NCBI RefSeq assembly: GCF_022539665.2
Contig: NC_081331.1
Location: 13,982,638 to 14,046,637, forward strand
Direction of reading: 5' to 3'
DNA from: Daphnia carinata
Lineage: Eukaryota; Arthropoda; Branchiopoda; Diplostraca; Daphniidae
Length of the DNA: 64,000 nucleotides
Numbering within the stretch: position 1 is the first letter of the stretch; the number at the start of each line of letters is the position of its first letter. The position numbers and the translations under genes are program-made. The notes under the pieces are model-generated. The model had not been told where the DNA came from and did not search any database. It saw nothing but the letters and a program-made list of their open reading frames with translations. Positions 22,211 to 43,809 of this stretch are shown in pieces.

Positions 22211-22739
22211 ATGAAATTCGTAAGTCTTTCTTCAGCAGATTTCTATTACATGTTCATACTTTTAAGACGAATTCATTCTGGCATTCGAATAGATCATCGC
22301 TCTCGCTTTCTTGGCTGTTGCCATTGCTGCACCACAAGAAGACAAGAAGCCTATTGAAATTATCTCATCCAATAGCGAAATGAACGCCGATGGAAGCTAT
22401 TCTTTTTCGTAAGTTAACCCTTCAATAATAATAATTTACGACGACTTGTTACATTAGGAATGAATTTCATCTCCATGTCACAGTTTCGAGAGTGAGGATG
22501 GTACCAAGGTGTCGGAGAGCGGTAGCCAGAAGCAAGTCGGACCTAAGTCCGAAGACATTGGAACCGTCTCCAAAGGATCTTACTCTTACACTTCTCCCGA
22601 TGGTGTTGTCCTCACCGTCAATTGGGTCGCTGATGAAAATGGATTCCAAGCCACCGGTGATCATTTGCCTACTCCTCCACCCATGCCCGAGCACGTCGTG
22701 AAGATGTTGGCCGATCTGAAGGCTGCTGGTGTTCTGTAA
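22211..22739 (+). CDS. CP10: RR-1 cuticle protein, class a
   Basis: Exons 22211-22219, 22293-22408 and 22484-22739 give 126 residues. It reads PQEDKK at 17-22, the only gene without the Gly of PQGDKK, and otherwise matches CP18 and CP26 in protein. Exon 2 ends SYSFS, exon 3 opens FESEDG, and GPKSED replaces GPKPED. Core SYTSPDGVVLT, ending KMLADLKAAGVL. Confidence 0.95.
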
Positions 22740-23149
22740 ACCTGCACATATATTACTTATCAACATGTAAATCACACAACCAAAAACTAAATTGCTCCGA
22801 TCACTTTGTGCCACTCCAAAGGCTCCCAACTTTTTCTGGGAGTAAAATACATAATAAACGTCTAGTTCCGTAAAACCGATTCTCTTTTACTTATTACAAA
22901 AGCCAACAAATTGTTGCCATTTGTAAATGAAACAATAAAGACTTCTTACTTGCTGATTGATGTATGGCAATAAATCCAAGCCCATCATCCAAGGAATATG
23001 TTCTTTCGCGACCGACTTTCGCTTTGTGCGCAATGATACTATTTCCGCTTTTTACGCAGGCTTGATAGTGAACGAGATAATAAGGCAAACGTCCAATTGT
23101 GATTAACGTTTTCATTTTTGAATATGGCGTTGGTATGCAATAATAAAAC

Positions 23150-23172
23150 ATGCATATGCATATGCATAATAG
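23150..23172. repeat. TGCATA microsatellite
   Basis: A short CATGCATATGCAT run. The copies near 35181 and 47171 have one more 6-bp unit, so it changed length after the 12-kb duplication. Confidence 0.85.
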
Positions 23173-23576
23173 AATGCTGCTAGTTAGCTTTTTCTAAATT
23201 AAGTTCCTTCCCATCAAATCTCTTGGCTTTTATTAAAACATCGTATGTTGTAAGTTCTTGCAAAGGCTTGCTCGTTGACAGTAACCTAGTAGCCTAATGT
23301 TGCGGAACGAAACAGCGAATGCCGCCAATTAGGAAAAATTTACCGTAAAGAAAACCCACTTTTACTCCCATTTTTACTCTATTGCGCAATTGCTTCCATC
23401 GACACTGTTGACATTTTTGCGGGGGCTCCAAACTGACCGCAGAGGTGAGTCTAATGGCTTCTGTGAAAGGCCACCAACTCTCGGTTGCTTACTGAAGTTC
23501 GGAACATTGACGTTTCCTTCTCCACATCAGTTTGGAACGGATTCTTTGTGAAATGAACGGAATCCCTACACCCTTT

Positions 23577-23625
23577 CAGAAAGTGGAAAGGCCCTTGAAT
23601 TTCATACCGCCGACGAATATAAAAT
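23577..23625 (+). promoter_or_regulatory. Class b promoter of CP11
   Basis: GTGGAAAGGCCCTTGA box within 23577-23604, TATAAAAT at 23618-23625, then GCATCACACTTC at the probable start. Confidence 0.75.
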
Positions 23626-23705
23626 GATGGTTTCTACTGGAATAGCATCACACTTCATTCTCAGCTTTCCTCAGAAGAGCAACAGAATCCCAATACTTGC
23701 TAAAA

Positions 23706-24228
23706 ATGAAATTGGTAAGGTTTAATCAAATGAAAAACTTTAATTCATTTACTTCTTTGTGTTTTTCTCGTTGTTGTAAAACAGTCGATCGTAGCTCTCG
23801 CTTTCTTGGCTGTGGCTTTTGCTGCACCTCAAGGAGACAAGAAGCCCATTGAAATTATCTCGTCCAACATCGAAGCAAATGCTGATGGAAGCTATTCTTT
23901 TGCGTAAGTTACGTCTCTTCTCTGTGTGACCTGTGTATTTAATCCCCAAATGGATATCAATTACGTCTACAGATTCGAGAGCGCCGATGGCACGAAAGTT
24001 TCAGAAAGCGGCAGCCAGAAACAAGTTGGACCTAAACCCGAGGATATTGGCACCGTTTCCCGAGGATCTTACTCTTACCTCTCTCCCGATGGTGTCACTC
24101 TCACCGTCAACTGGGTTGCCGATGAGAACGGATTCCAGGCCACCGGTGATCATTTGCCCACTCCGCCACCGATGCCCGCGCACGTCGTCAAGATGCTGGC
24201 CGATTTGAAAGCTGCTGGTCTTCTGTAA
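23706..24228 (+). CDS. CP11: RR-1 cuticle protein, class b
   Basis: Exons 23706-23714, 23785-23903 and 23973-24228 give 127 residues. Signal peptide MKLSIVALAFLAVAFA. The mature N-terminus has SSNIEANADG, the later class b form. Its core SRGSYSYLSPDGVTLT and MPAHVV match CP4, while the syntenic copy CP19 has YSFTTPDGVVLT and MPEHVV. Introns and flanks of CP11 and CP19 are nearly identical, so the difference is confined to exon 3. Confidence 0.95.
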
Positions 24229-25199
24229 ACTGTTCCCATATTACCTGCACAAACATGATCCAATTAGTGTCCCAATCGCTTTGTACAAGTTTCGCAGTGT
24301 TGTCCATTTTTTTCTCTCGTGAAAATACATCCAATTTTACTTCCGTAAAACCCTTTCCTTAATTTCTCTTGCGAGGTGGCGAAAACAATTAATGATGAAA
24401 TAGAATAACGATTCTAGCAAAAACTTGATGTGTAATGTTTTTTTTTATTCAAAAGGCGGAACGCAGCGAAATAGTTTGTTGCCGTTTATAGAACGAAATT
24501 AATAAGGTAGCAATATGTATAGAAAAAATGGCCTGTCGACAAACCGACTTCGAATAACTTGTCATTAAAATCCCAATCATCCATAAATTGGTTATAAGGG
24601 ACGTCTTAAAAAATGTGACATTATAAAGAGCGGAATCTTGCTTCGTTTGAAATTCAAGTGCCGAATACACTTACGTCACAGAAACACGCTAGGGATGCAA
24701 CAGGTGTAACTTTATTTTCTACTAATGTGATAGGCTAGGATATATTTTTAGTCCCTGGTCAATGAAGAAATTATTCTCAAACTTTTTAATTCGTTTGTCA
24801 GCCTTGTTTGAAGGTACCCTTTTTAAACCTAAGTTTTTATTCATCCAATTATCGGTGATTTATGGGGTTTAAAACTTACATTTGTCGTTGACCGTTGTTT
24901 ATACTGTATTTTATATTTGATAATCAAAGATTTGAAAAAGAAAAAGCAGCTGCCATTGCCCAAATTTGAAATATGTGTGTATAGGCAGTCCGATTTCTTT
25001 GCCAATTAAGCTATCACGTTTAAGGAAGATTTCCCTCTTCCATTGCCAGACTCACGAGAGAGGGGTGAAGGTTTCATACCAAACACGTTTAGTCGGAAGG
25101 CAATCCGTTCTAAAAGGAATCTTGTAGTGTCTCAAAGATGCAATAATCGTGAGCCGTCCTACAATGTAAAGTAAGGAAACGAAAGCCTCTGTCTGTATT

Positions 25200-25267
25200 G
25201 GCATCGATATCCATAGTCTCTGAAGTGAGCACACCCTTCGTGTACAAGGAAAGGAGGGATATAAATG
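25200..25267 (+). promoter_or_regulatory. Class c promoter of CP12
   Basis: GGCATCGATATCCA box at 25200-25213 and TATAAATG at 25260-25267. ATCATCACACATCC follows about 25 nt later. Confidence 0.75.
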
Positions 25268-25347
25268 GCAGCCAGCACGTCCGACTATCATCACACATCC
25301 TCCTCAACAGTCTTCAGTCAAGGATCGAAACAACCAACCTTACCAGA

Positions 25348-25863
25348 ATGAAATTCGTAAGTGATTACTTGAATTTCAGTTTCCTTTCCCTTTTCATTCT
25401 TTAGTTTATTATCTTTGTTATTTCATAACAGATTATCGCCCTCGCTTTCTTGGCCGTGGCTTTGGCTGCACCACAAGGTGACAAGAAACCCATTGAAATT
25501 ATTTCATCCAACAGCGAAATGAACGCTGATGGCAGCTACTCTTTCAAGTAAGCTCATTTTCAATTACTTTTTCTGGACTGCATTAAAAATCTGATAAACT
25601 CTTGCAGTTTCGAGAGCGCCGATGGCACAAAAGTGTCAGAGAGCGGCAACCAGAAGAAAGTCGGACCCAAGGATGAAGATATCGGAACTGTCTCCAAAGG
25701 ATCTTACTCTTACACTTCTCCCGATGGTGTTGTAATCACGGTCAACTGGGTCGCTGATGAGAACGGATTCCAGGCCACTGGTGATCATTTGCCAACTCCT
25801 CCCCCCATGCCCGAGCATGTTGTGAAGATGTTGGCCGATTTGAAGGCTGCTGGTGTTCTGTGA
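25348..25863 (+). CDS. CP12: RR-1 cuticle protein, class c
   Basis: Exons 25348-25356, 25432-25547 and 25608-25863 give 126 residues. Signal peptide MKFIIALAFLAVALA, junction SYSFN, GNQKKVGPKDED, core SYTSPDGVVIT and end KMLADLKAAGVL. The stop is TGA, shared only with its duplicate CP20; the other array genes end in TAA. The predicted protein is identical to CP20. Confidence 0.95.
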
Positions 25864-26194
25864 GCCCGTGCATGCATCCCCTATCAACTTGAAGCCACTG
25901 GAAAAAAAATTTTGAATATGTTGCTACTTTGTAAAGTCCAATGTAATTAGTCCTTTTTTTTTAATAAAGAAAAATTCATTTCCAATTCACATTGTTTTTC
26001 TTCTAAACTGCTAGATGAGAGATGATTCCCTGGGCAATTGTTTGCGTTTTCAACGATTACTAGAAATAAGTTAAAGAATTTGGAATGTTGTCCGCGTTTT
26101 CTTATTTGTTTTATTTTGAATGGATCATAACGGGTAAGATTTCGTCAAAATTTTAAGTCCGATTTTGTTTTTAAAAAAGGTTGGTCTTAAAAAA

Positions 26195-26232
26195 TAAGCC
26201 CGACAAAATAAGCCCGACAAAATAAGCCCGAC
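26195..26232 (+). repeat. AAGCCCGAC subrepeats downstream of CP12
   Basis: Three perfect TAAGCCCGAC units spaced by AAAA. The attached repeat body is shortened here by about 190 bases relative to the CP15-CP16 spacer. Confidence 0.85.
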
Positions 26233-26511
26233 TTTTGAATTCGTTAAATTTTTTGTTTTCAAAAATCGAACTATAATTATTAAAATACATCACTGGGATG
26301 CAACATTTTATAAGAATAAAAAAAGTTAAATTCATCTGTTCGTAAGGCCCATAGTTTCTTCGATAATATAAACAGGGACGGGGGTAGTTTCAAGCTCGAT
26401 TTCTAAGTGTTACCCGATAAGTGGGTGCCTTATGTCATCGTTCGAAGTTTCTTTTTGAAAATGGGCATCGTAAGGAGGCTTTCAGAGAGTCCATTCATCT
26501 TTTTAAGAGAA

Positions 26512-26554
26512 GGGAACGACCCTCAGCTTTCAGTCCGAGTGGGGTACATATAAG
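26512..26554 (+). promoter_or_regulatory. Class a promoter of CP13
   Basis: GGGAACGACCCTCAG box within 26512-26533 and TATAAG at 26549-26554. Confidence 0.75.
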
Positions 26555-26635
26555 AAGAACCTGCCGACAACCATCATCACAATCCTCTCACAGCCTTCTC
26601 CAGAAGAACAACAGGATAATCCAAAATTCGCAAAA

Positions 26636-27158
26636 ATGAAATTCGTGAGTCTTTCTTTAGCAGATTTCTATTACAAATTCATACTTTTAAATCGTTTTCA
26701 TTCTGGGGTTTAAACAGATCATCGCTCTCGCTTTCTTGGCTGTTGCCATTGCCGCACCGCAAGGAGACAAGAAGCCCATTGAGATTATTTCATCCAATAG
26801 CGAAATGAACGCAGATGGAAGCTACGCTTTCGAGTAAGTTCAACTACTCATTGTTGTCCCTCTTTTTTGCTGAAAAAGATCAACTCCGATTTATTTACAA
26901 AGTTTTGTGAGCGCTGATGGCACTAAAGTGTCAGAGAGCGGCAACCAGAAGCAAGTCGGACCTAAGCCCGAGGATATTGGAACTGTATCCAAAGGATCTT
27001 ACTCTTACACCACCCCCGATGGCGTCGTCCTCACCGTCAACTGGGTTGCCGACGAGAACGGTTTTCAGGCTACCGGTGATCATTTGCCCACTCCTCCCCC
27101 GATGCCCGAGCACGTCGTGAAGATGTTGGCCGATTTGAAGGCTGCTGGTGTTCTCTAA
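26636..27158 (+). CDS. CP13: RR-1 cuticle protein, class a
   Basis: Exons 26636-26644, 26718-26833 and 26903-27158 give 126 residues. Exon 2 ends SYAFD (Ala for Ser) and exon 3 opens FVSADG. Core SYTTPDGVVLT, ending KMLADLKAAGVL with an unusual CTC before the stop. The duplicate CP21 differs mainly within about 60 bases of the core. The intron 1 donor is GTGAGT. Confidence 0.95.
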
Positions 27159-27987
27159 ACCTGTGCATATATTGCCCATCAACATGTAAATCACACAACC
27201 AAAAATGAAATTGATCTGATCACTTTGTATCACTCCAAAGGCTCCCAACTTTTTCTGGGAGTAGAATACATAATAAACGTCTAGTTCCGTAAAACCGATT
27301 CTCATTTACTTACTACAAAAACCAACAAATTGTTGCCAGTTATAAATGAAACGGTCAAGGCTTCATACTTGCTGATTTATGGCAATAAACCTAATCTCAT
27401 CATCTACGGAATATGTTTTTTCGCGATCAAATTTCACTTTTTACGCAATGATGCTATTTTCCGATTTTTACGCAGATTTCATTGTGAACAACATAATGAA
27501 ACAAACGTCTAGTTGTGATTAATGTTTTCATATTAAACTATAGCGTTGGCATGCCATTAAAGCATACGAAATGCTGCTAGTTAGTTTTTCCGGAATAAAG
27601 TCCCTTCCCATCAGATTTGTTGGCTTTTATTAAAACATCGTATTCTGAAATTTCCTATGAAGGCTTGCTCGTTGACAGTAATCTAGTAACCTAATGTTGT
27701 GGAACGAAACAGTGAATGCAACAAATTAGAAAAAATTTACTCTGAACGAAACTCGTTTCTTTCCTCAATTTTGCTAAACTCATACAAGCCTCCATCGACG
27801 TTTCCTGACATTTTTGCGGGGTCTCTTAGCTGACCGAAGAGATGCCTCTAATGGCTCCGTGCCAACTTTTATTTCAGTGAAAGGCCACCAACTCTCGGTT
27901 GCATACTGAAGTTCGGAACATTGACGTTTCTTTCCCCACTGTTTGGAACGGATTTTCTGCGGAATGAATGGAATCCCTACACCCATT

Positions 27988-28036
27988 CAGAATGTGGGAA
28001 GGCCCTTGAATTCTAGACCGCCGACGAATATAAAAT
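27988..28036 (+). promoter_or_regulatory. Class b promoter of CP14
   Basis: GTGGGAAGGCCCTTGA box within 27988-28013 and TATAAAAT at 28029-28036. Confidence 0.7.
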
Positions 28037-28116
28037 GATGGTTTCTACTGGAATAACATCACACTTCATTCTCAGCTATCCTCAGAAGAGCAACAGAATC
28101 CCAACACTTCTTAAAA

Positions 28117-28656
28117 ATGAAATTGGTAACCTTAAAATTTAAACCTAATGTTTAACTCATTTACTTCCTCGTGTTCTTGGTGTTTAATCTATTCTCGTTG
28201 TTGTACAACAGTCGATCATCGCTCTCGCTTTCTTTGCTGTGGCTTTTGCTGCACCTCAAGGAGACAAGAAGCCCATTGAGATTATTTCGTCCAACATCGA
28301 AACAAATGCTGATGGAAGCTATTCTTTTGCGTAAGTTATTTCTTCTCTATTGTTTGACCTGTGTATATAATCCACAAATGGATACCAATTTCGTCTACAG
28401 ATTCGAGAGCGCCGATGGCACGAAAGTTTCAGAAAGCGGCAACCAGAAACAAGTCGGATCTAAACCCGAAGACATTGGAACCGTCTCTAAAGGATCTTAC
28501 TCTTACACCAGCCCCGATGGCGTCGTCATCACCGTCAACTGGGTTGCTGATGAGAACGGTTTCCAGGCCACCGGTGATCATTTGCCAACTCCTCCCCCGA
28601 TGCCCGAGCACGTCGTCAAGCTCCTCGCCGACTTGAAAGCTGCTGGTCTTCTGTAA
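28117..28656 (+). CDS. CP14: RR-1 cuticle protein, class b
   Basis: Exons 28117-28125, 28212-28330 and 28401-28656 give 127 residues. Signal peptide MKLSIIALAFFAVAFA (Phe for Leu), then SSNIETNADG. GSKPED replaces GPKPED, shared with CP22. Core SYTSPDGVVIT, ending KLLADLKAAGLL. CP22 has a different core (FYSFTTPDGVVLT) and KMLADL, although the surrounding non-coding sequence is nearly the same. Confidence 0.95.
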
Positions 28657-29582
28657 ACTGTTCCCGTATTACCTGCACAAACATGATCCAATTAGTGTCC
28701 CAATCGCTTTGTACAAGTTTCGCAGTTTGTTGTCCATTTTATCCTCGTGAAAATACAGCCAATTTTTCTTCCGTCAAACCCTGTCCTTAATTACTCTTGC
28801 GAAGTGGCGAAAACCCTTGCTTTACAGAATAACGAATCTAGGAAAAACTTGATGTGTAATGTGTTTGTTTTAATTCAAAAGACGAAACGCAGCGGAATAG
28901 TTTGTTGCATTTTATAGAACGACATTCATAAGGTAATGTATAGAAAAAAAAATGGTCTGCCGACAAAGCGGCTTCGAATAACTTGTCATTCAAATCACAA
29001 TCATCCATAACTTGGTTATAAGGGATGTCTTAAAATGCGACATTATAAAGAACGGAATCTTGCTTCGTTTGAATTCGAAGTACCGAATACACTTCCGTCA
29101 CCGAAACAAGTTAGGGATGCAAAAGATGTAACTTTATTTTCAACCAATGGGATAGCCTAGTATACATTTAGTCCCTGGTCAACGAAAAAATTATTCTAAA
29201 CTCTTCAATTCGTTTGTCAGCTTTGTTAGAAGACGCCGTGTGATTTATGGGATATTTCAGAATTACATTTGTCATTGACCATTGTTTATATTTCGAATTT
29301 GATAATCAAAGATGTGAAAAAGAAAAAGCAGCAGTCGTTCCAGAAACTCTAAATATGTGTCTATAGACAGTTCGATTTCTTTGCCAATTAAGCATCACAT
29401 TCAACGCAGATTTCCCTACTCCTTTTCCAGATTCACGAGAGACGGGTGAAGGTTTCATACCAAACACCTTTAGTCGGAAGACACTCCGTTCTCAAGGAAT
29501 ATCGTAGTGTTTTGGATATGCAAAAATCGTGAGCCGTCCCACAAATTTTAAGAAAGGAAACGAAAGCCTCTCTGAAAATATT

Positions 29583-29649
29583 GGCATCGATATCCATTGT
29601 CTCGAAAGTAAGCACACCCTTCGTGTGCAAGGAGAGGAGGATATAAATG
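29583..29649 (+). promoter_or_regulatory. Class c promoter of CP15
   Basis: GGCATCGATATCCA box at 29583-29596 and TATAAATG at 29642-29649. Confidence 0.75.
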
Positions 29650-29729
29650 ACGGCCAGCATGTCCGACTATCATCACACATCCTCCTCAACAGTCTCCAAA
29701 CAAGGATCCAAACAACCAAACTTACCAGA

Positions 29730-30255
29730 ATGAAATTCGTAAGCGATTACTTGAATTTCAGTTTCCTTTCCCTTTTCAATTTTTTAGTTTACTGTCTTTG
29801 TTATGTCATAACAGATTATCGCTCTCGCTTTCTTGGCCCTGGCTTTGGCTGCACCACAAGGTGACAAGAAACCCATTGAAATTATTTCATCCAACAGCGA
29901 AATGAACGCTGATGGCAGCTACTCTTTCAAGTAAGCTCATTTGCAATTACCTTTTCTGGACTGCATTAAAAATCTGATAAACTCTTGCAGTTTCGAGAGC
30001 GCCGATGGCACAAAAATGTCAGAGAGCGGCAACCAGAAGAAAGTCGGACCCAAAGATGAAGATATTGGAACTGTTTCCAAAGGATCTTACTCGTACACTT
30101 CTCCGGACGGCGTTATCATCACTGCCAACTTGGTTGCTGATGAGAACGGTTTCCAGGCCACCGGTGATCATTTGCGGCATTTGCCCACTCCTCCCCCGAT
30201 GCCCGAACATGTCGTGAAGATGTTGGCCGATTTGAAGGCTGCTGGTGTTCTGTAA
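29730..30255 (+). CDS. CP15: RR-1 cuticle protein, class c, with altered domain core
   Basis: Exons 29730-29738, 29815-29930 and 29991-30255 give 129 residues. Exon 3 is 265 nt, against 256 in 28 of the array genes. A 9-base duplication inserts Arg-His-Leu at the end of the domain (GDHLRHLPTPPP). The core reads DGVIITANLVADENG: the Trp present at position 89 in every other array gene is Leu, and Val87 is Ala. Codons just before match CP7, suggesting a CP7-like tract that then took two missense changes. The signal peptide has LALALA. The reading frame is intact, so it may be expressed with reduced or altered chitin binding. CP23 is normal at these sites. Confidence 0.93.
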
Positions 30256-30598
30256 GCCCGCGCATATATCACCCATCAACATGAAGCCACTCGAAAAATG
30301 TTTGAATATGTTGCCACTTTGTAAAGCCCAATGTAATTAGTCCTTTTTTTTTTTAAATAAAGAAAATTCATTTTCATTCAAACTGTTTTTCCTTCTTAAC
30401 TGCTGGATGAAAGATGATTCCCTGGGTAATTGTTTGTGTTTTGAACGATTACTAGAATTAAGTTAAAGAATTTGGAATGCTGTCCGCGTTTTCTTATTTG
30501 TTTTAGTTTGAATGAATCATAACTGGTAAGATTTCGTCGAAATCCCAGTCAAAATTTTAAGTCCGATTTTGTTTTTAAAAAAAGTTGGTCTTAAAAAA

Positions 30599-30622
30599 TA
30601 AGCCCGACAAAATAAGCCCGAC
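30599..30622 (+). repeat. AAGCCCGAC subrepeats downstream of CP15
   Basis: Two units, followed by the longer repeat body up to about 30960. Confidence 0.85.
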
Positions 30623-31130
30623 TTTTTCGTTTGTTTAATTTTTTTCAAAAATCAAAATATAATTATTAAAATACATCACTGGGATAGAACATTTTATAAG
30701 AATAAAAAAATTGAATTCGTCTGTTCGTGAGACGCATAGTTTCTGAGTTATATGAATTCTAAATGGTTTTAGCGAAACCATTGTGATCCCGTTTTGTGTT
30801 ATAATATCCATAATTAAGGTAAAACTAATTACATATCCAGAATTTACGCGTCATATCGGATTTAGTAATGGGTTTTTATCGACTTCCAAATCAAAATTGT
30901 TATTCGGTTTATTTCGATAATATGAACGGGGACGGGGGTAGTTTCAAGTTCGATTTCTAAGTGTTTCTCAACAGAAGTGCCGTACCTCTAAATAAATAAA
31001 CGGTAAAACTGGAGAACGGGTATTGTTATAAAAAAAAAGTGTTTCCCTTATGTCATCGAACGAATTTTTATTATTGAAAATCGGCATCGTAAGGAGACTT
31101 TGGGAGAGTCCATTCTTCTTTTTAAGAGAA

Positions 31131-31173
31131 GGGAATGACCCTCAGCTTTCAGCCCGAGTGGGGTACATATAAG
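31131..31173 (+). promoter_or_regulatory. Class a promoter of CP16
   Basis: GGGAATGACCCTCAG box (ATGACC for ACGACC, shared with CP24) at 31131-31145 and TATAAG at 31168-31173. Confidence 0.7.
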
Positions 31174-31254
31174 AAGAATCTGCTGACAACCATCATCACA
31201 ATCCTCTCTCAGCCTTCTTCAGAAGAACAACAGGACAATCCAAAATTCGCAAAA

Positions 31255-31777
31255 ATGAAATTTGTAAGTCGATCCTCCAACCGATTTCTTTAACTGCATC
31301 ATACTTTTTAATCGTTTTCATTCTGGCGTTTAAACAGATCATCGCTCTCGCTTTCTTGGCTATTGCCATCGCCGCACCGCAAGGAGACAAGAAGCCCATT
31401 GAGATTATTTCATCCAACAGCGAGATGAACGCCGATGGAAGTTACACTTTCGAGTAAGTTCAACTACTCATTTTTGTACCTCTTTTTTGCTGGAAAAGAT
31501 CAACTTCTATTTATTTACACAGTTTTTGAGCGCTGATGGCACAAAAGTATCAGAAAGCGGTAGCCAAAAGCAAGTTGGACCTAAACCCGAAGACATCGGC
31601 ACCGTCTCCAAGGGATCTTACTCTTTCACTACCCCCGATGGTGTTGTCATCACTGTAAACTGGGTTGCTGATGAAAACGGTTTCCAAGCTACTGGAGATC
31701 ATTTGCCCACTCCTCCTCCGATGCCCGAGCACGTCGTGAAGATGTTGGCCGATCTGAAAGCTGCCGGTGTTCTGTAA
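31255..31777 (+). CDS. CP16: RR-1 cuticle protein, class a, one-base deletion at start of exon 3
   Basis: Exons 31255-31263, 31338-31453 and a third ending at 31777. With the family acceptor, exon 3 starts at 31523 and is 255 nt: the frame then reads Asp-Phe and a TGA. The duplicate CP24 has TTTTGTGAGC where CP16 has TTTTTGAGC, so one base is missing. An AG at 31529-31530 would give exon 3 from 31531, restore the frame and drop three residues (Phe-Val-Ser), for a 123-residue protein beginning exon 3 with ADGTKVSESGSQ. The rest of the domain is intact (YSFTTPDGVVIT, VNWVADENG, ending AAGVL). It is either a recent null, a gene rescued by splicing, or a sequencing error. Confidence 0.8.
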
Positions 31778-32606: not shown

Positions 32607-32655
32607 CAGAAAGTGGAAAGAACCTTGAATTTCATACCGCCGACGAATATAAAAT
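32607..32655 (+). promoter_or_regulatory. Class b promoter of CP17
   Basis: GTGGAAAGAACCTTGA box within 32607-32634 and TATAAAAT at 32648-32655. Here the complement reads TCAAGGTTC. Confidence 0.7.
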
Positions 32656-34118: not shown

Positions 34119-34160
34119 GGGAACGACCCTCAGGTTTCGGCTGTCTGGGGTACATATAAG
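34119..34160 (+). promoter_or_regulatory. Class a promoter of CP18
   Basis: GGGAACGACCCTCAGG box at 34119-34134 and TATAAG at 34155-34160; duplicate of the CP10 promoter. Confidence 0.7.
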
Positions 34161-34241
34161 AAGAACCTACCGACAACCATCAGCACAATCCTCCCTCAAC
34201 CTTCTCCAGAAGAACAACAGGATAATCCAAAACTCGCAAAA

Positions 34242-34770
34242 ATGAAATTCGTAAGTCTTTCTTCAGCAGATTTCTATTACATGTTCATACTTTTAAGACG
34301 AATTCATTCTGGCATTCGAATAGATCATCGCTCTCGCTTTCTTGGCTGTTGCCATTGCTGCACCACAAGGAGACAAGAAGCCTATTGAAATTATCTCATC
34401 CAATAGCGAAATGAACGCCGATGGAAGCTATTCTTTTTCGTAAGTTAACCCTTCAATAATAATAATTTACGACGACTTGTTACATTAGGAATGAATTTCA
34501 TCTCCATGTCACAGTTTCGAGAGTGAGGATGGTACCAAGGTGTCGGAGAGCGGTAGCCAGAAGCAAGTCGGACCTAAGTCCGAAGACATTGGAACCGTCT
34601 CCAAAGGATCTTACTCTTACACTTCTCCCGATGGTGTTGTCCTCACCGTCAATTGGGTCGCTGATGAAAATGGATTCCAAGCCACCGGTGATCATTTGCC
34701 TACTCCTCCACCCATGCCCGAGCACGTCGTGAAGATGTTGGCCGATCTGAAGGCTGCTGGTGTTCTGTAA
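34242..34770 (+). CDS. CP18: RR-1 cuticle protein, class a
   Basis: Exons 34242-34250, 34324-34439 and 34515-34770 give 126 residues. Duplicate of CP10 with the usual PQGDKK, and identical in predicted protein to CP26. Exon 3 shows no block of differences from CP10, unlike several other A/B pairs. Confidence 0.95.
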
Positions 34771-35613
34771 ACCTGCACATATATTACTTATCAACATGTA
34801 AATCACACAACCAAAAACTAAATTGCTCCGATCACTTTGTGCCACTCCAAAGGCTCCCAACTTTTTCTGGGAGTAAAATACATAATAAACGTCTAGTTCC
34901 GTAAAACCGATTCTCTTTTACTTATTACAAAAGCCAACAAATTGTTGCCATTTGTAAATGAAACAATAAAGACTTCTTACTTGCTGATTGATGTATGGCA
35001 ATAAATCCAAGCCCATCATCCAAGGAATATGTTCTTTCGCGACCGACTTTCGCTTTGTGCGCAATGATACTATTTCCGCTTTTTACGCAGGCTTGATAGT
35101 GAACGAGATAATAAGGCAAACGTCCAATTGTGATTAACGTTTTCATTTTTGAATATGGCGTTGGTATGCAATAATAAAACATGCATATGCATATGCATAT
35201 GCATAATAGAATGCTGCTAGTTAGTTTTTTCTAAATTAAGTTCCTTCCCATCAAATCTCTTGGCTTTTATTAAAACATCGTATGTTGTAAGTTCTTGCAA
35301 AGGCTTGCTCGTTGACAGTAACCTAGTAGCCTAATGTTGCGGAACGAAACAGCGAATGCCGCCAATTAGGAAAAATTTACCGTAAAGAAAACCCACTTTT
35401 ACTCCCATTTTTACTCTATTGCGCAATTGCTTCCATCGACACTGTTGACATTTTTGCGGGGGCTCCAAACTGACCGCAGAGGTGAGTCTAATGGCTTCTG
35501 TGAAAGGCCACCAACTCTCGGTTGCTTACTGAAGTTCGGAACATTGACGTTTCCTTCTCCACATCAGTTTGGAACGGATTCTTTGTGAAATGAACGGAAT
35601 CCCTACACCCTTT

Positions 35614-35662
35614 CAGAAAGTGGAAAGGCCCTTGAATTTCATACCGCCGACGAATATAAAAT
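35614..35662 (+). promoter_or_regulatory. Class b promoter of CP19
   Basis: GTGGAAAGGCCCTTGA box within 35614-35641 and TATAAAAT at 35655-35662. Confidence 0.75.
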
Positions 35663-35742
35663 GATGGTTTCTACTGGAATAGCATCACACTTCATTCTCA
35701 GCTTTCCTCAGAAGAGCAACAGAATCCCAATACTTGCTAAAA

Positions 35743-36264
35743 ATGAAATTGGTAAGGTTTAATCAAATGAAATCTTTAATTCATTTACTTCTTTGTGTTT
35801 TTCTCGTTGTTGTAAAACAGTCGATCGTAGCTCTCGCTTTCTTGGCTGTGGCTTTTGCTGCACCTCAAGGAGACAAGAAGCCCATTGAAATTATCTCGTC
35901 CAACATCGAAGCAAATGCTGATGGAAGCTATTCTTTTGCGTAAGTTACGTCTCTTCTCTGTGTGACCTGTGTATTTAATCCCCAAATGGATATCAATTAC
36001 GTCTACAGATTCGAGAGCGCCGATGGCACGAAAGTTTCAGAAAGCGGCAGCCAGAAACAAGTCGGACCTAAACCCGAGGACATTGGAACCGTCTCTAAAG
36101 GATCTTACTCTTTCACTACTCCCGATGGTGTCGTCCTCACCGTCAACTGGGTCGCCGATGAGAATGGATTCCAGGCCACCGGTGATCATTTGCCAACTCC
36201 TCCTCCCATGCCCGAACACGTCGTGAAGATGCTGGCCGATTTGAAAGCTGCTGGTCTTCTGTAA
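35743..36264 (+). CDS. CP19: RR-1 cuticle protein, class b
   Basis: Exons 35743-35751, 35821-35939 and 36009-36264 give 127 residues. Duplicate of CP11, but the core is YSFTTPDGVVLT with SKG and MPEHVV, where CP11 has SRGSYSYLSPDGVTLT and MPAHVV. The predicted protein equals CP27 in the third copy, so CP11 is the one that changed, or both CP19 and CP27 were converted. Confidence 0.95.
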
Positions 36265-37235
36265 ACTGTTCCCATATTACCTGCACAAACATGATCCAAT
36301 TAGTGTCCCAATCGCTTTGTACAAGTTTCGCAGTGTTGTCCATTTTTTTCTCTCGTGAAAATACATCCAATTTTACTTCCGTAAAACCCTTTCCTTAATT
36401 TCTCTTGCGAGGTGGCGAAAACAATTAATGATGAAATAGAATAACGATTCTAGCAAAAACTTGATGTGTAATGTTTTTTTTTATTCAAAAGGCGGAACGC
36501 AGCGAAATAGTTTGTTGCCGTTTATAGAACGAAATTAATAAGGTAGCAATATGTATAGAAAAAATGGCCTGTCGACAAACCGACTTCGAATAACTTGTCA
36601 TTAAAATCCCAATCATCCATAAATTGGTTATAAGGGACGTCTTAAAAAATGTGACATTATAAAGAGCGGAATCTTGCTTCGTTTGAAATTCAAGTGCCGA
36701 ATACACTTACGTCACAGAAACACGCTAGGGATGCAACAGGTGTAACTTTATTTTCTACTAATGTGATAGGCTAGGATATATTTTTAGTCCCTGGTCAATG
36801 AAGAAATTATTCTCAAACTTTTTAATTCGTTTGTCAGCCTTGTTTGAAGGTACCCTTTTTAAACCTAAGTTTTTATTCATCCAATTATCGGTGATTTATG
36901 GGGTTTAAAACTTACATTTGTCGTTGACCGTTGTTTATACTGTATTTTATATTTGATAATCAAAGATTTGAAAAAGAAAAAGCAGCTGCCATTGCCCAAA
37001 TTTGAAATATGTGTGTATAGGCAGTCCGATTTCTTTGCCAATTAAGCTATCACGTTTAAGGAAGATTTCCCTCTTCCATTGCCAGACTCACGAGAGAGGG
37101 GTGAAGGTTTCATACCAAACACGTTTAGTCGGAAGGCAATCCGTTCTAAAAGGAATCTTGTAGTGTCTCAAAGATGCAATAATCGTGAGCCGTCCTACAA
37201 TGTAAAGTAAGGAAACGAAAGCCTCTGTCTGTATT

Positions 37236-37303
37236 GGCATCGATATCCATAGTCTCTGAAGTGAGCACACCCTTCGTGTACAAGGAAAGGAGGGATATAA
37301 ATG
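37236..37303 (+). promoter_or_regulatory. Class c promoter of CP20
   Basis: GGCATCGATATCCA box at 37236-37249 and TATAAATG at 37296-37303. Confidence 0.75.
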
Positions 37304-37383
37304 GCGGCCAGCACGTCCGACTATCATCACACATCCTCCTCAACAGTCTTCAGTCAAGGATCGAAACAACCAACCTTACCAGA

Positions 37384-37899
37384 ATGAAATTCGTAAGTGA
37401 TTACTTGAATTTCAGTTTCCTTTCCCTTTTCATTCTTTAGTTTATTATCTTTGTTATTTCATAACAGATTATCGCCCTCGCTTTCTTGGCCGTGGCTTTG
37501 GCTGCACCACAAGGTGACAAGAAACCCATTGAAATTATTTCATCCAACAGCGAAATGAACGCTGATGGCAGCTACTCTTTCAAGTAAGCTCATTTTCAAT
37601 TACTTTTTCTGGACTGCATTAAAAATCTGATAAACTCTTGCAGTTTCGAGAGCGCCGATGGCACAAAAGTGTCAGAGAGCGGCAACCAGAAGAAAGTCGG
37701 ACCCAAGGATGAAGATATCGGAACTGTCTCCAAAGGATCTTACTCTTACACTTCTCCCGATGGTGTTGTAATCACGGTCAACTGGGTCGCTGATGAGAAC
37801 GGATTCCAGGCCACTGGTGATCATTTGCCAACTCCTCCCCCCATGCCCGAGCATGTTGTGAAGATGTTGGCCGATTTGAAGGCTGCTGGTGTTCTGTGA
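37384..37899 (+). CDS. CP20: RR-1 cuticle protein, class c
   Basis: Exons 37384-37392, 37468-37583 and 37644-37899 give 126 residues. The predicted protein is identical to CP12, including the TGA stop. Only scattered base changes separate the two gene regions. Confidence 0.95.
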
Positions 37900-38230
37900 G
37901 CCCGTGCATGCATCCCCTATCAACTTGAAGCCACTCGAAAAAAAGTTTTGAATATGTTGCTACTTTGTAAAGTCCAATGTAATTAGTCCTTTTTTTTTAA
38001 TAAAGAAAAATTCATTTCCAATTCACATTGTTTTTCTTCTAAACTGCTAGATGAGAGATGATTCCCTGGGCAATTGTTTGCGTTTTCAACGATTACTAGA
38101 AATAAGTTAAAGAATTTGGAATGTTGTCCGCGTTTTCTTATTTGTTTTATTTTGAATGGATCATAACGGGTAAGATTTCGTCAAAATTTTAAGTCCGATT
38201 TTGTTTTTAAAAAAGGTTGGTCTTAAAAAA

Positions 38231-38268
38231 TAAGCCCGACAAAATAAGCCCGACAAAATAAGCCCGAC
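38231..38268 (+). repeat. AAGCCCGAC subrepeats downstream of CP20
   Basis: Three units; copy B counterpart of 26195-26232. Confidence 0.85.
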
Positions 38269-38547
38269 TTTTGAATTCGTTAAATTTTTTGTTTTCAAAA
38301 ATCGAACTATAATTATTAAAATACATCACTGGGATACAACATTTTATAAGAATAAAAAAAGTTAAATTCGTCTGTTCGTAAGGCCCATAGTTTCTTCGAT
38401 AATATAAACAGGGACGGGGGTAGTTTCAAGCTCGATTTCTAAGTGTTACCCGATAAGTGGGTGCCTTATGTCATCGTTCGAAGTTTCTTTTTGAAAATGG
38501 GCATCGTAAGGAGGCTTTGAGAGAGTCCATTCATCTTTTTAAGAGAA

Positions 38548-38590
38548 GGGAACGACCCTCAGCTTTCAGTCCGAGTGGGGTACATATAAG
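38548..38590 (+). promoter_or_regulatory. Class a promoter of CP21
   Basis: GGGAACGACCCTCAG box within 38548-38569 and TATAAG at 38585-38590. Confidence 0.75.
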
Positions 38591-38671
38591 AAGAACCTGC
38601 CGACAACCATCATCACAATCCTCTCACAGCCTTCTCCAGAAGAACAACAGGATAATCCAAAATTCGCAAAA

Positions 38672-39194
38672 ATGAAATTCGTGAGTCTTTCTTTAGCAGA
38701 TTTCTATTACAAATTCATACTTTTAAATCGTTTTCATTCTGGGGTTTAAACAGATCATCGCTCTCGCTTTCTTGGCTGTTGCCATTGCCGCACCGCAAGG
38801 AGACAAGAAGCCCATTGAGATTATTTCATCCAATAGCGAAATGAACGCAGATGGAAGCTACGCTTTCGAGTAAGTTCAACTACTCATTGTTGTCCCTCTT
38901 TTTTGCTGAAAAAGATCAACTCCGATTTATTTACAAAGTTTTGTGAGCGCTGATGGCACTAAAGTGTCAGAGAGCGGCAACCAGAAGCAAGTCGGACCTA
39001 AGCCCGAGGATATTGGAACTGTATCCAAAGGGTCTTACTCTTACACCTCCTCCGATGGAGTCGTCATCGGTGTCAACTGGGTTGCCGATGAGAACGGTTT
39101 CCAGGCTACCGGTGATCATTTGCCCACTCCTCCCCCGATGCCCGAGCACGTCGTGAAGATGTTGGCCGATTTGAAGGCTGCTGGTGTTCTCTAA
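38672..39194 (+). CDS. CP21: RR-1 cuticle protein, class a, variant core
   Basis: Exons 38672-38680, 38754-38869 and 38939-39194 give 126 residues. The core reads SYTSSDGVVIGVNW: the Pro of the PDG turn at position 80 is Ser and Thr86 is Gly, both unique in the array. Its duplicate CP13 has SYTTPDGVVLTVNW. About nine base differences fall in this short block, while introns and flanks barely differ. Trp89 and ADENGF are kept. Confidence 0.95.
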
Positions 39195-40023
39195 ACCTGT
39201 GCATATATTGCCCATCAACATGTAAATCACACAACCAAAAATGAAATTGATCTGATCACTTTGTATCACTCCAAAGGCCCCCAACTTTTTTTGGGAGTAG
39301 AATACATAATAAACGTCTAGTTCCGTAAAACCAATTCTCATTTACTTACTACAAAAACCAACAAATTGTTGCCAGTTATAAATGAAACGGTCAAGGCTTC
39401 ATACTTGCTGATTTATGGCAATAAACCTAATCTCATCATCTACGGAATATGTTTTTTCGCGATCAAATTTCACTTTTTACGCAATGATGCTATTTTCCGA
39501 TTTTTACGCAGATTTCATTGTGAACAACATAATGAAACAAACGTCTAGTTGTGATTAATGTTTTCATATTAAACTATAGCGTTGGCATGCCATTAAAGCA
39601 TACGAAATGCTGCTAGTTAGTTTTTCCGGAATAAAGTCCCTTCCCATCAGATTTGTTGGCTTTTATTAAAACATCGTATTCTGAAATTTCCTATGAAGGC
39701 TTGCTCGTTGACAGTAATCTAGTAACCTAATGTTGTGGAACGAAACAGTGAATGCAACAAATTAGAAAAAATTTACTCTGAACGAAACTCGTTTCTTTCC
39801 TCAATTTTGCTAAACTCATACAAGCCTCCATCGACGTTTCCTGACATTTTTGCGGGGTCTCTTAGCTGACCGAAGAGATGCCTCTAATGGCTCCGTGCCA
39901 ACTTTTATTTCAGTGAAAGGCCACCAACTCTCGGTTGCATACTGAAGTTCGGAACATTGACGTGTCTTTCCCCACTGTTTGGAACGGATTTTCTGCGGAA
40001 TGAATGCAATCCCTACACCCATT

Positions 40024-40072
40024 CAGAATGTGGGAAGGCCCTTGAATTTTAGACCGCCGACGAATATAAAAT
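40024..40072 (+). promoter_or_regulatory. Class b promoter of CP22
   Basis: GTGGGAAGGCCCTTGA box within 40024-40050 and TATAAAAT at 40065-40072. Confidence 0.7.
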
Positions 40073-40152
40073 GATGGTTTCTACTGGAATAACATCACAC
40101 TTCATTCTCAGCTATCCTCAGAAGAGCAACAGAATCCCAACACTTCTTAAAA

Positions 40153-40692
40153 ATGAAATTGGTAACCTTAAAATTTAAACCTAATGTTTAACTCATTTAC
40201 TTCCTCGTGTTCTTGGTGTTTAATCTATTCTCGTTGTTGTACAACAGTCGATCATCGCTCTCGCTTTCTTTGCTGTGGCTTTTGCTGCACCTCAAGGAGA
40301 CAAGAAGCCCATTGAGATTATTTCGTCCAACATCGAAACAAATGCTGATGGAAGCTATTCTTTTGCGTAAGTTATTTCTTCTCTATTGTTTGACCTGTGT
40401 ATATAATCCACAAATGGATACCAATTTCGTCTACAGATTCGAGAGCGCCGATGGCACGAAAGTTTCAGAAAGCGGCAACCAGAAACAAGTCGGATCTAAA
40501 CCCGAAGACATTGGAACCGTCTCTAAAGGATTTTACTCTTTCACTACTCCCGATGGTGTTGTCCTCACCGTCAACTGGGTCGCTGATGAGAACGGATTCC
40601 AGGCCACCGGTGATCATTTGCCAACTCCTCCTCCCATGCCCGAACATGTCGTGAAGATGCTGGCCGATTTGAAAGCTGCTGGTCTTCTGTAA
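40153..40692 (+). CDS. CP22: RR-1 cuticle protein, class b
   Basis: Exons 40153-40161, 40248-40366 and 40437-40692 give 127 residues. Duplicate of CP14 (same AFFAVAFA signal peptide and GSKPED). From the core to the C-terminus it follows the CP19/CP27 type (FTTPDGVVLT, KMLADL). KGFYSF replaces KGSYSF: the Ser of the core GSY is Phe only here. Confidence 0.95.
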
Positions 40693-41623
40693 ACTGTTCC
40701 CGTATTACCTGCACAAACATGATCCAATTAGTGTCCCAATCGCTTTGTACAAGTTTCGCAGTTTGTTGTCCATTTTTTCCTCGTGAAAATACAGCCAATT
40801 TTTCTTCCGTCAAACCCTGTCCTTAATTACTCTTGCGAAGTGGCGAAAACCCTTGCTTTACAGAATAACGAATCTAGGAAAAACTTGATGTGCAATGTGT
40901 TTGTTTTAATTCAAAAGACGAAACGCAGCGGAATAGTTTGTTGCATTTTATAGAACGACATTCATAAGGTAATAATATGTATAGAAAAAAAAATGGTCTG
41001 CCGACAAAGCGGCTTCGAATAACTTGTCATTCAAATTACAATCATCCATAACTTGGTTATAAGGGATGTCTTAAAATGCGACATTATAAAGAACGGAATC
41101 TTGCTTCGTTTGAATTCGAAGTACCGAATACACTTCCGTCACCGAAACAAGTTAGGGATGCAAAAGATGTAACTTTATTTTCAACCAATGGGATAGCCTA
41201 GTATACATTTAGTCCCTGGTCAACGAAAAAATTATTCTAAACTCTTCAATTCGTTTGTCAGCTTTGTTAGAAGACGCCGTGTGATTTATGGGATATTTCA
41301 GAATTACATTTGTCATTGACCATTGTTTATATTTCGAATTTGATAATCAAAGATGTGAAAAAGAAAAAGCAGCAGTCGTTCCAGAAACTCTAAATATGTG
41401 TCTATAGACAGTTCGATTTCTTTGCCAATTAAGCATCACATTCAACGCAGATTTCCCTACTCCTTTTCCAGATTCACGAGAGACGGGTGAAGGTTTCATA
41501 CCAAACACCTTTAGTCGGAAGACACTCCGTTCTCAAGGAATATCGTAGTGTTTTGGATATGCAAAAATCGTGAGCCGTCCCACAAATTTTAAGAAAGGAA
41601 ACGAAAGCCTCTCTGAAAATATT

Positions 41624-41690
41624 GGCATCGATATCCATTGTCTCGAAAGTAAGCACACCCTTCGTGTGCAAGGAGAGGAGGATATAAATG
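41624..41690 (+). promoter_or_regulatory. Class c promoter of CP23
   Basis: GGCATCGATATCCA box at 41624-41637 and TATAAATG at 41683-41690. Confidence 0.75.
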
Positions 41691-41770
41691 ACGGCCAGCA
41701 TGTCCGACTATCATCACACATCCTCCTCAACAGTCTCCAAACAAGGATCCAAACAACCAAACTTACCAGA

Positions 41771-42287
41771 ATGAAATTCGTAAGCGATTACTTGAATTTC
41801 AGTTTCCTTTCCCTTTTCAATTTTTTAGTTTACTGTCTTTGTTATGTCATAACAGATTATCGCTCTCGCTTTCTTGGCCCTGGCTTTGGCTGCACCACAA
41901 GGTGACAAGAAACCCATTGAAATTATTTCATCCAACAGCGAAATGAACGCTGATGGCAGCTACTCTTTCAAGTAAGCTCATTTGCAATTACCTTTTCTGG
42001 ACTGCATTAAAAATCTGATAAACTCTTGCAGTTTCGAGAGCGCCGATGGCACAAAAGTGTCAGAGAGCGGCAACCAGAAGAAAGTCGGACCCAAAGATGA
42101 AGATATTGGAACTGTTTCCAAAGGATCTTACTCTTACATTTCGCCTGAAGGTATTACCATCACCGTCAACTGGGTTGCCGATGAGAACGGTTTCCAGGCC
42201 ACCGGTGATCATTTGCCCACTCCTCCCCCGATGCCCGAGCACGTCGTCAAACTCCTCGCCGATTTGAAGGCCGCTGGTGTTCTGTAA
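41771..42287 (+). CDS. CP23: RR-1 cuticle protein, class c, variant core
   Basis: Exons 41771-41779, 41856-41971 and 42032-42287 give 126 residues. Duplicate of CP15 but without the Trp loss and the three-residue insertion. Its core SYISPEGITITVNW (Ile78, Glu81, Ile83-Thr84) is found nowhere else in the window, so its source must be an array member outside it, or independent change. It ends KLLADLKAAGVL where CP15 has KMLADL. Confidence 0.95.
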
Positions 42288-42630
42288 ACCCGCGCATATA
42301 TCACCCATCAACATGAAGCCACTCGAAAAATGTTTGAATATGTTGCCACTTTGTAAAGCCCAATGTAATTAGTCCTTTTTTTTTTAAAATAAAGAAAATT
42401 CATTTTCATTCAAACTGTTTTTCCTTCTTAACTGCTGGATGAAAGATGATTCCCTGGGTAATTGTTTGTGTTTTGAACGATTACTAGAATTAAGTTAAAG
42501 AATTTGGAATGCTGTCCGCGTTTTCTTATTTGTTTTAGTTTGAATGAATCATAACTGGTAAGATTTCGTCGAAATCCCAGTCAAAATTTTAAGTCCGATT
42601 TTGTTTTTAAAAAAAGTTGGTCTTAAAAAA

Positions 42631-42654
42631 TAAGCCCGACAAAATAAGCCCGAC
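42631..42654 (+). repeat. AAGCCCGAC subrepeats downstream of CP23
   Basis: Two units; copy B counterpart of 30599-30622. Confidence 0.85.
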
Positions 42655-43161
42655 TTTTTCGTTTGTTAAATTTTTTTCAAAAATCAAATATAATTATTAA
42701 AATACATCACTGGGATAGAACATTTTATAAGAATAAAAAAATTGAATTCGTCTGTTCGTGAGACGCATAGTTTCTGAGTTATATGAATTCTAAATGGTTT
42801 TAGCGAAACCATTGTGATCCCGTTTTGTGTTATAATATCCATAATTAAGGTAAAACTAATTACATATCCAGAATTTACGCGTCATATCGGATTTAGTAAT
42901 GGGTTTTTATCGACTTCCAAATCAAAATTGTTATTCGGTTTATTTCGATAATATGAACGGGGACGGGGGTAGTTTCAAGTTCGATTTCTAAGTGTTTCTC
43001 AACAGAAGTGCCGTACCTCTAAATAAATAAACGGTAAAACTGGAGAACGGGTATTGTTATAAAAAAAAAGTGTTTCCCTTATGTCATCGAACGAATTTTT
43101 ATTATTGAAAATCGGCATCGTAAGGAGACTTTGGGAGAGTCCATTCTTCTTTTTAAGAGAA

Positions 43162-43204
43162 GGGAATGACCCTCAGCTTTCAGCCCGAGTGGGGTACATA
43201 TAAG
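43162..43204 (+). promoter_or_regulatory. Class a promoter of CP24
   Basis: GGGAATGACCCTCAG box within 43162-43183 and TATAAG at 43199-43204. Confidence 0.7.
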
Positions 43205-43285
43205 AAGAATCTGCTGACAACCATCATCACAATCCTCTCTCAGCCTTCTTCAGAAGAACAACAGGACAATCCAAAATTCGCAAAA

Positions 43286-43809
43286 ATGAAATTTGTAAGT
43301 CGATCCTCCAACCGATTTCTTTAACTGCATCATACTTTTTAATCGTTTTCATTCTGGCGTTTAAACAGATCATCGCTCTCGCTTTCTTGGCTATTGCCAT
43401 CGCCGCACCGCAAGGAGACAAGAAGCCCATTGAGATTATTTCATCCAACAGCGAGATGAACGCCGATGGAAGTTACACTTTCGAGTAAGTTCAACTACTC
43501 ATTTTTGTACCTCTTTTTTGCTGGAAAAGATCAACTTCTATTTATTTACACAGTTTTGTGAGCGCTGATGGCACAAAAGTATCAGAAAGCGGTAGCCAAA
43601 AGCAAGTTGGACCTAAACCCGAAGAAATTGGTCCCGTTTCTAAGGGATCTTACTCCTACACATCTCCGGAAGGCGTCGTCATCACTGTAAACTGGGTTGC
43701 TGATGAAAACGGTTTCCAAGCTACTGGAGATCATTTGCCCACTCCTCCTCCGATGCCCGAGCACGTCGTGAAGATGTTGGCCGATCTGAAAGCTGCCGGT
43801 GTTCTGTAA
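43286..43809 (+). CDS. CP24: RR-1 cuticle protein, class a, intact duplicate of CP16
   Basis: Exons 43286-43294, 43369-43484 and 43554-43809 give 126 residues. Signal peptide MKFIIALAFLAIAIA, junction SYTFD, then FVSADG. GPKPEEIGPVSKG (Glu66, Pro69) and TSPEGVVIT are private variants. The 3' half and all flanks match CP16. Confidence 0.95.

Follow-up and report, generated by a model that had tools for sequence, protein, structure and literature searches.

Gene conversion acting on the chitin-binding domain of cuticle proteins is known from Drosophila, and the Daphnia array described here is most likely a very clean example of it. Exchange confined to coding sequence is also reported from another gene family, a 1996 study by Benedict having reportedly found, to go by its title, that concerted evolution of mosquito Hsp82 is limited to ORFs. 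In Drosophila, interlocus gene conversion focused on the domain has been described for the CPR genes Ccp84Aa/Ccp84Ab and Ccp84Ad/Ccp84Ad' (Cornman 2009, PMC2793513), which belong to the same protein family as the Daphnia array. In the part of that account devoted to these genes, specific pairs grow alike and conversion is linked to coding repeats; in Daphnia, by contrast, the effect shows as divergence between fresh tandem duplicates, with several donors implied and one match 3.2 Mb off. The same source attributes extensive concerted evolution to the cuticle protein arrays of Anopheles gambiae, which resemble the present locus in their clusters of highly similar cuticle genes, tandem duplication and exchange, although its passages on the mosquito contain no base-level comparison of recent duplicates (PMC2793513). 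Conversion between fog-2 and ftr-1 of C. elegans offers a further likeness in its short paralogue tracts, moderate overall divergence and local stretches of identity, but involves two genes and, in the sections of the article that deal with it, polymorphism among isolates (PMC3966223). The opposite outcome is described for the duplicated exons of Dscam in Daphnia and Drosophila, which in Daphnia are likewise tandem and 130-160 bp long, and for which the GENECONV analysis given in PMC3236188 found no conversion.

A recently duplicated block in a cuticle protein array

The locus lies in one assembly of Daphnia carinata (NC_081331.1), in a window of 64,000 nucleotides, which is the whole stretch of DNA analysed and whose positions serve as coordinates throughout. 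Judged from its sequence, it is a tandem array of about 30 predicted cuticle protein genes of the R&R type (CPR). Against Chitin_bind_4 (PF00379; cut-off 25), the exons of the array, 30 in all, reach 55-74 bits, and the three-exon models have a hydrophobic start in 27 of the 30 genes, CP09, CP17 and CP25 being without a model and the CP16 model using a wrong acceptor. The following parts of the array are considered:

20974..32339, + strand: copy A, near-identical part, from CP09 exon 3 to CP16 and the next spacer
32340..44351, + strand: copy B, CP17 to CP24
44352..48254, + strand: copy C, a partial third copy, CP25 to CP27, B-like until just 3' of CP27 exon 3
32889..33019, + strand: approximate crossover junction in CP17, just 5' of exon 3

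The comparison of A with B starts at window base 20974, the 650 bp upstream of it being about 19% diverged, and outside exon 3 the two copies differ by 0.28%. CP17 is a hybrid gene, CP25-like in its upstream part and CP09-like from exon 3 onward. Unequal crossing over would recently have duplicated a 12-kb block within this array of some 30 genes. Between B and C, about 13 substitutions fall in the spacer, 300-1,000 bp past the start of CP17/25 exon 3, so that their difference goes beyond exons; CP19 and CP27 diverge from each other just 3' of exon 3. Because the 12-kb duplication has diverged so little, later exon exchanges stand out against it cleanly and can be followed per base, with their donors and, in some cases, with their direction.

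The two copies differ in exon 3

As the original prediction had proposed, the differences between A and B cluster in exon 3 and divergence is not uniform, with 90 substitutions in 2,048 bp (eight exons, CP09/17 included) vs 26 in the 9,286 bp outside it, where the flanks of the exon 3 tracts are unaffected (odds ratio 16, Fisher p ~1e-44, sites being taken as independent though they lie in blocks). The announced near-identity of paired introns, UTRs and spacers was also borne out: substitutions number 0/63 in exon 1, 1/818 in exon 2, 1/526 in intron 1, 0/471 in intron 2 and 24/7,408 in UTRs plus spacers. Blocks were found in the five of eight exon 3 pairs where they had been predicted, CP11/19, CP13/21, CP14/22, CP15/23 and CP16/24 (24, 10, 19, 22 and 15 substitutions, respectively), and CP10/18 and CP12/20, rightly listed as free of blocks, show 0 differences each, as does CP09/17. 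CP15/23 additionally differs by a 9-bp insertion in CP15, and CP16/24 by a 1-bp deletion in CP16 exon 3. The blocks lie mid-exon and span about 50 to 160 bp:

22484..22739, + strand: CP10 exon 3, identical to CP18
34515..34770, + strand: CP18 exon 3, identical to CP10
25608..25863, + strand: CP12 exon 3, identical to CP20
37644..37899, + strand: CP20 exon 3, identical to CP12
24027..24189, + strand: CP11 block with 24 differing sites, on the changed side of the pair; best donor CP04
36063..36225, + strand: CP19 segment opposite the CP11 block, in the older state, mostly common to CP27
26996..27065, + strand: CP13 segment opposite the CP21 block, differing at 10 sites
39032..39101, + strand: CP21 block, five alleles absent from the other 38 exons compared, no donor found
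28496..28632, + strand: CP14 block with 19 differing sites, on the changed side of the pair; best donor CP05
40532..40668, + strand: CP22 segment opposite the CP14 block, in the older subfamily state
30093..30240, + strand: CP15 block, 21 of 22 sites, 9-bp insertion, conserved residues altered
42134..42272, + strand: CP23 counterpart, ISPEGIT form, no donor found
31594..31645, + strand: CP16 block, 15 sites
43626..43677, + strand: CP24 block, 15 sites
43642..43748, + strand: CP24 tract of 107 bp, matching without difference a paralogue 3.2 Mb off (C1:10798616-10798871)

We regard ectopic gene conversion that is restricted to exon 3 and acts on a young tandem duplication as the best explanation of this pattern, with a probability of roughly 0.84. 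In five of the eight pairs, ectopic (interlocus) conversion would have replaced pieces of exon 3 in one copy or both. Points against it are the two pairs for which no donor was found, the substitutions seen in no other exon compared, the excess of differences in the core, the spacer differences between B and C, the lack of blocks in the equally similar exon 2 and in the introns, and the reliance on one assembly. The identical contrast would arise if the introns and spacers of A and B had recently become homogenised and exon 3 had retained old differences, a scenario that is scarcely credible: to even out 12 kb and yet leave five exon interiors untouched would take many separate tracts ending within exons, the CP19 state is also present in CP27 with CP11 as the odd copy, and three pairs have identical exons.

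A special role of the TSPDGVV motif was also considered and is weakly founded, because the motif occupies a roughly central position in exon 3 (256 bp). Simulated tracts all touch this core, five out of five, in 16-37% of draws; its share of the differences, 0.42, is reached in 1.4-4.3% of simulations (p 0.014-0.043) and is above the geometric expectation.

Donor tracts and direction of the probable exchange

Donors were sought by comparing ten exons with shuffled donors (1,000 shuffles). The predicted match of CP11 to CP04 proved to be an exact tract of 48 bp (0/1,000 shuffles); CP24 matches the gene at C1:10.7986 Mb (0/1,000), CP14 matches CP05 (2/1,000) and, more weakly, CP22 matches CP29 (20/1,000). 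No significant donor tract appeared in six of the ten exons tested, some of which are presumably unchanged partners. The tract of CP11 is present in CP04 as well. Direction can be read in two pairs. At 21 of the 24 CP11/19 sites CP27 has the same base as CP19, so CP11 is the changed copy; likewise, each of CP19, CP27, CP09 and CP25 sides with CP22 at 16 of the 19 CP14/22 sites, hence CP14 is the changed one. The resemblance of CP22 to CP19 that had been pointed out originally is thus real (96.9% identity), but more probably reflects the older state of the subfamily. The proposed link of CP15 with CP07 holds in a 29-bp exact match and in shared codons that are rare elsewhere, but the best tract of CP15 is not significant.

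A GENECONV-like scan of exon 3, the kind of test that had been suggested, gave five of 595 pairs significant at the global 5% level, CP24 with C1:10.7986 Mb among them, and two of 595 with third positions alone; these counts come from an uncorrected alignment in which the CP15 insertion is 3 bases off and CP16 is placed one base early, and neither gene is in any of the five pairs. Of these five tracts, three are found elsewhere than in A and B (CP06 with CP07, CP05 with CP28, and CP29 with a gene located outside the window). In agreement with exchange, six of six non-sister alignments show near-identity within part of exon 3 and a drop-off outside it, except in exon 2.

Tract exchange by gene conversion was upheld by the donor test in three of the five pairs, but for CP13/21 and CP15/23 this test found no donor. 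The core patterns of CP21 and CP23 (27 and 30 bases, at most 3 mismatches) matched only CP21 and CP23 themselves; among 130 proteins (the best 120 of 480 plus the best 120 of 378 matches), the SSDG and IGVNW of CP21 occurred in none and the EGIT of CP23 only in CP23 itself (P0003). Conversion is the best reading also for these two pairs.

An assembly or polishing artefact, in which reads of paralogous exons were misplaced or two haplotypes were set in tandem as A and B, is quite improbable. The block spans resemble short reads and mid-exon is the best place for mapping; the low divergence outside exon 3, the 1-bp deletion in CP16 and the fact that all evidence comes from one assembly point the same way. 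However, 13 alleles are absent from the other 38 exons compared, so they have no known read source, most of the significant tracts lie outside A and B, and CP16 and CP24 both carry part of the long-range tract. Moreover, a 1-kb spacer probe found two near-identical copies and four at 77-82%, with none on unplaced contigs, and the hybrid CP17 supplies a mechanistic junction for the duplication.

The 13 alleles just mentioned, out of 90 exon 3 substitutions, compare with 3.6 expected at the flank rate, an excess of 3.6 times, and several unmatched changes or indels lie beside or inside imported tracts, at conserved residues. The CP15 and CP21 copies look impaired as far as their predicted proteins go, some of the differing residues being conserved ones. 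It is conceivable, if unlikely, that conversion is itself mutagenic here, both shuffling and mutating the chitin-binding core and giving variants that are new and often damaged; exon 3 would then be a site where repair between imperfect homologues does both.

Silent sites and selection

Pooled over the five differing exon 3 pairs, pS reaches 0.186, which is about 63-fold the non-coding value, with a pN/pS of 0.19 (corrected alignment). Silent divergence of this size is beyond the reach of protein selection alone and therefore indicates that the tracts were imported: exon 3 differs because already diverged sequence was brought in. To call the pattern the reverse of normal constraint, as was done originally, is misleading, since a pN/pS of 0.19 means that the protein is still constrained. 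Diversifying selection driving fast amino-acid change in the chitin-binding core could draw on the 28 aligned residues that differ across the five pairs, with a slight core excess, and on a pN/pS above the 0.11 found between non-sister genes (uncorrected alignment); it is nevertheless very improbable, because it would still need imported tracts to explain the silent sites. As main cause it was rejected, being contradicted by these sites and by replacement that is not faster. Exon-only divergence thus calls for caution before positive selection is read from it, and the locus suggests that constraint on a domain can by its own effect direct recombination to it. Conversion is a possible standing source of protein diversity.

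Proposed mechanism and timing

Across 340 non-sister pairs (uncorrected alignment), exon 3 (256 bp) has an identity of 0.849 with 0.3% gaps, vs 0.70-0.72 with 13-19% gaps in introns and flanks. Exon 2 (115 bp), at 0.858, is as alike as exon 3, and towards the closest non-sister gene it reaches 0.966 vs 0.942 for exon 3, with introns at 0.91-0.92. What sets exon 3 apart is not similarity as such, since exon 2 and introns are alike yet carry no block. Exon 3 is probably the only long gap-poor stretch common to the subfamilies and, as the longest near-gapless one, it is where strand exchange between genes of different subfamilies would start and stop; such exchange would most often cover the exon middle, which is the chitin-binding core. 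We infer that homology length sets the tract limits, and we attribute the sparing of exon 2 to its 115-bp length. The tracts would be moved by repair-type conversion rather than by double crossover, and the events would be neutral or nearly so.

The conversion events would most simply postdate the duplication, whose age is about 0.16-0.57 million generations at the mutation rates quoted in PMC12926508. With at least five events in 16 copies, if all came after the duplication, this gives a rough rate of 0.5-2 in each generation per million gene copies. A real, though less than even, possibility is that A and B are older alleles joined by unequal crossing over of homologues, the blocks being standing polymorphism made by conversion. 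Their 0.28% outside exon 3 is less than the 1.2-1.7% quoted in PMC12926508 for synonymous diversity in D. obtusa populations and could be allelic; however, the same conversion is needed, merely earlier, and no data require older alleles. This timing fits with ectopic conversion as the explanation and only shifts its date.

Three further CPR duplicates that are also near-identical vary in this respect. The pair L053/L054 shows no block (0/195 substitutions in the domain, 3/2,296 outside), and in L051/L052 the domain end and coding tail carry a block, 10 substitutions plus a 3-bp gap, with near-identity around it. The inverted pair in L055 has the opposite pattern, with 1/225 in the domain and 22/552 outside.

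Differences between the copies

The window lies in a 14,382,998-base contig of the 108-Mb assembly and holds an array of 30 cuticle protein genes of the R&R kind, presumably of the RR-1 subtype, all on its + strand. They were numbered CP01-CP30 by exon 3 position, in agreement with the pairs of the original prediction, and three-exon models were obtained by script for 27 of the 30. The 12-kb copies A (CP09-CP16) and B (CP17-CP24) can be aligned over their full length. From base 20974 onward, exon 3 carries 90 substitutions in 2,048 bp against 26 in 9,286 bp of all other sequence, which bears out the predicted concentration of A/B differences in this exon. Blocks of differences were confirmed in CP11/19, 13/21, 14/22, 15/23 and 16/24; CP10/18 and CP12/20, in which none had been noticed before, have identical third exons, as does CP09/17. 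Between B and the partial third copy C (CP25-CP27), exon 3 differs at 9 positions in CP17/25, 0 in CP18/26 and 5 in CP19/27, and about 13 substitutions in the spacer following CP17/25 make this contrast less clean than A/B.

In the five differing exons, silent-site difference is 0.186 and replacement difference 0.035 (ratio 0.19), with A/B non-coding divergence of about 0.003; among non-sister array genes the replacement/silent ratio is 0.11 (421 pairs, in an uncorrected alignment with the CP15 insertion 3 bases off and CP16 read 1 base early). The blocks were most likely imported and are not the product of accelerated change, because protein selection cannot lift silent divergence some 60-fold with introns untouched. 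An assembly artefact is unlikely: unplaced contigs are absent from the best 40 matches of each of four exon 3 probe searches and from the 6 matches of a spacer probe, and the private alleles described below have no known read source. A study of Drosophila CPR genes (PMC2793513) describes gene conversion centred on the R&R region, a known process of which exon 3 conversion in this Daphnia array would be a further instance. Among the literature matches listed, up to 20 per search and in one case 20 of 79, no title or beginning of an abstract deals with the array itself.

Restriction to exon 3

Across 340 non-sister pairs, identity is 0.849 with 0.3% gaps in the 256 bp of exon 3 (uncorrected alignment), 0.858 in exon 2, which spans only about 115 bp, and 0.70-0.72 with 13-19% gaps in introns and flanks. 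In comparisons with the closest non-sister gene, exon 3 has a lower identity than exon 2, and introns attain 0.91-0.92, which counts against similarity as the explanation of the restriction. Recombination needs a minimum length of homology, and tracts may be limited by length and gap-freedom across subfamilies, not by similarity as such. The chitin-binding core (TSPDGVV) has a roughly central position in exon 3, in the zone of greatest overlap between exon-confined tracts, and 16-37% of simulations had all five tracts reaching it. A modest extra concentration of differences in the core remains beyond this geometry, since the observed core share was attained in only 1.4-4.3% of simulated draws.

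Donors and direction of change

Ten exons were searched for the exactly shared stretch holding most A/B difference sites in any of 32-33 distinct non-sister exons, against 1,000 shuffles of donor columns. CP11 shares 8 of 24 sites with CP04 (0/1,000 shuffles), CP14 9 of 19 with CP05 (2/1,000), and CP24 9 of 15 with a distant paralogue (0/1,000):

window 43642-43748 against L039:5617-5872 (C1:10798616-10798871): CP24 tract, 107 bases identical to a paralogue 3.2 Mb apart, flanks strongly diverged

The match of CP22 with CP29 (8/19 sites, 20/1,000) is weak given ten tests. No significant donor tract was found by this test for CP13, CP15, CP16, CP19, CP21 or CP23, some of which are probably the unchanged partner. 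The GENECONV-type test proposed earlier, run as a GENECONV-like scan, yielded 5 of 595 pairs significant at the global 5% level, of which three fall outside A and B (CP06 with CP07, CP05 with CP28, and CP29 with a gene outside the window); 2 of 595 pass on third positions alone (both on the uncorrected alignment). In six non-sister alignments, part of exon 3 is near-identical and similarity drops sharply outside it, except in exon 2.

CP27, the third copy of CP11/19, matches CP19 at 21 of 24 sites, and CP11 is therefore the changed copy; likewise, CP19, CP27, CP09 and CP25 each have the CP22 state at 16 of 19 sites, which makes CP14 the changed one. For 13/21, CP08 and CP29 share 7 of 10 sites with CP13 and 2 with CP21, suggesting that CP21 is the changed copy; for 15/23 the outgroups conflict. 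The long-range tract of CP24 probably predates the duplication, since CP16 has its downstream portion too, and by parsimony CP16 was probably overwritten later upstream of it.

Private alleles and indels

Alleles absent from all other exons among 39 number 5 in CP21, 3 in CP24, 2 each in CP15 and CP23 and 1 in CP22, that is, 13 against 3.6 expected at the flank rate (Poisson p ~1e-4). Pattern searches across the whole genome did not reveal where the CP21 or the CP23 core could have come from. Donors lying in other haplotypes or since overwritten are favoured for such alleles; the less favoured alternative is that conversion may itself be mutagenic in this array, by analogy with break repair in yeast, the subject of a review (PMC4052342). 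Two genes of copy A carry indels:

window 30160-30185, + strand: 9-bp insertion in CP15, adjoining a repeated CATTTG
window 31523-31530, + strand: 1-bp deletion in CP16 relative to CP24 by alignment, at the start of exon 3

Near its insertion, CP15 has replaced a conserved valine and a conserved tryptophan kept in the other 38 exons, and its PF00379 (Chitin_bind_4) score is the lowest of the 30 array exons (55 bits). CP16 is frameshifted with the usual acceptor; an alternative AG a few bases downstream, if used, would restore the reading frame for the remainder of the exon at the cost of about three residues.

Likely duplication junction and other CPR duplicates

One gene of copy B is a hybrid:

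window 32889-33274, + strand: CP17, resembling CP25 upstream and CP09 from exon 3 onward

CP17 is likely the junction of the unequal crossover behind the duplication. CP19 and CP27 are alike to just past exon 3 and diverge beyond. Elsewhere, near-identical CPR duplicates at 13.80 and 13.81 Mb of the contig (L051:1725-1791 and L052) differ by one cluster in coding sequence, made up of 10 substitutions plus a 3-bp gap. An inverted CPR pair (L055:751-1534 and 3128-3904) differs at 1 of 225 domain positions and 22 of 552 flanking ones, a pattern opposite to A/B that would resemble concerted evolution. The exon at L051:1483-1725 is a member of a larger CPR subfamily with dispersed copies: of its 40 best-scored matches, 38 lie elsewhere at 88-91% identity, including several that neighbour one another in opposite orientation and some located on small contigs.
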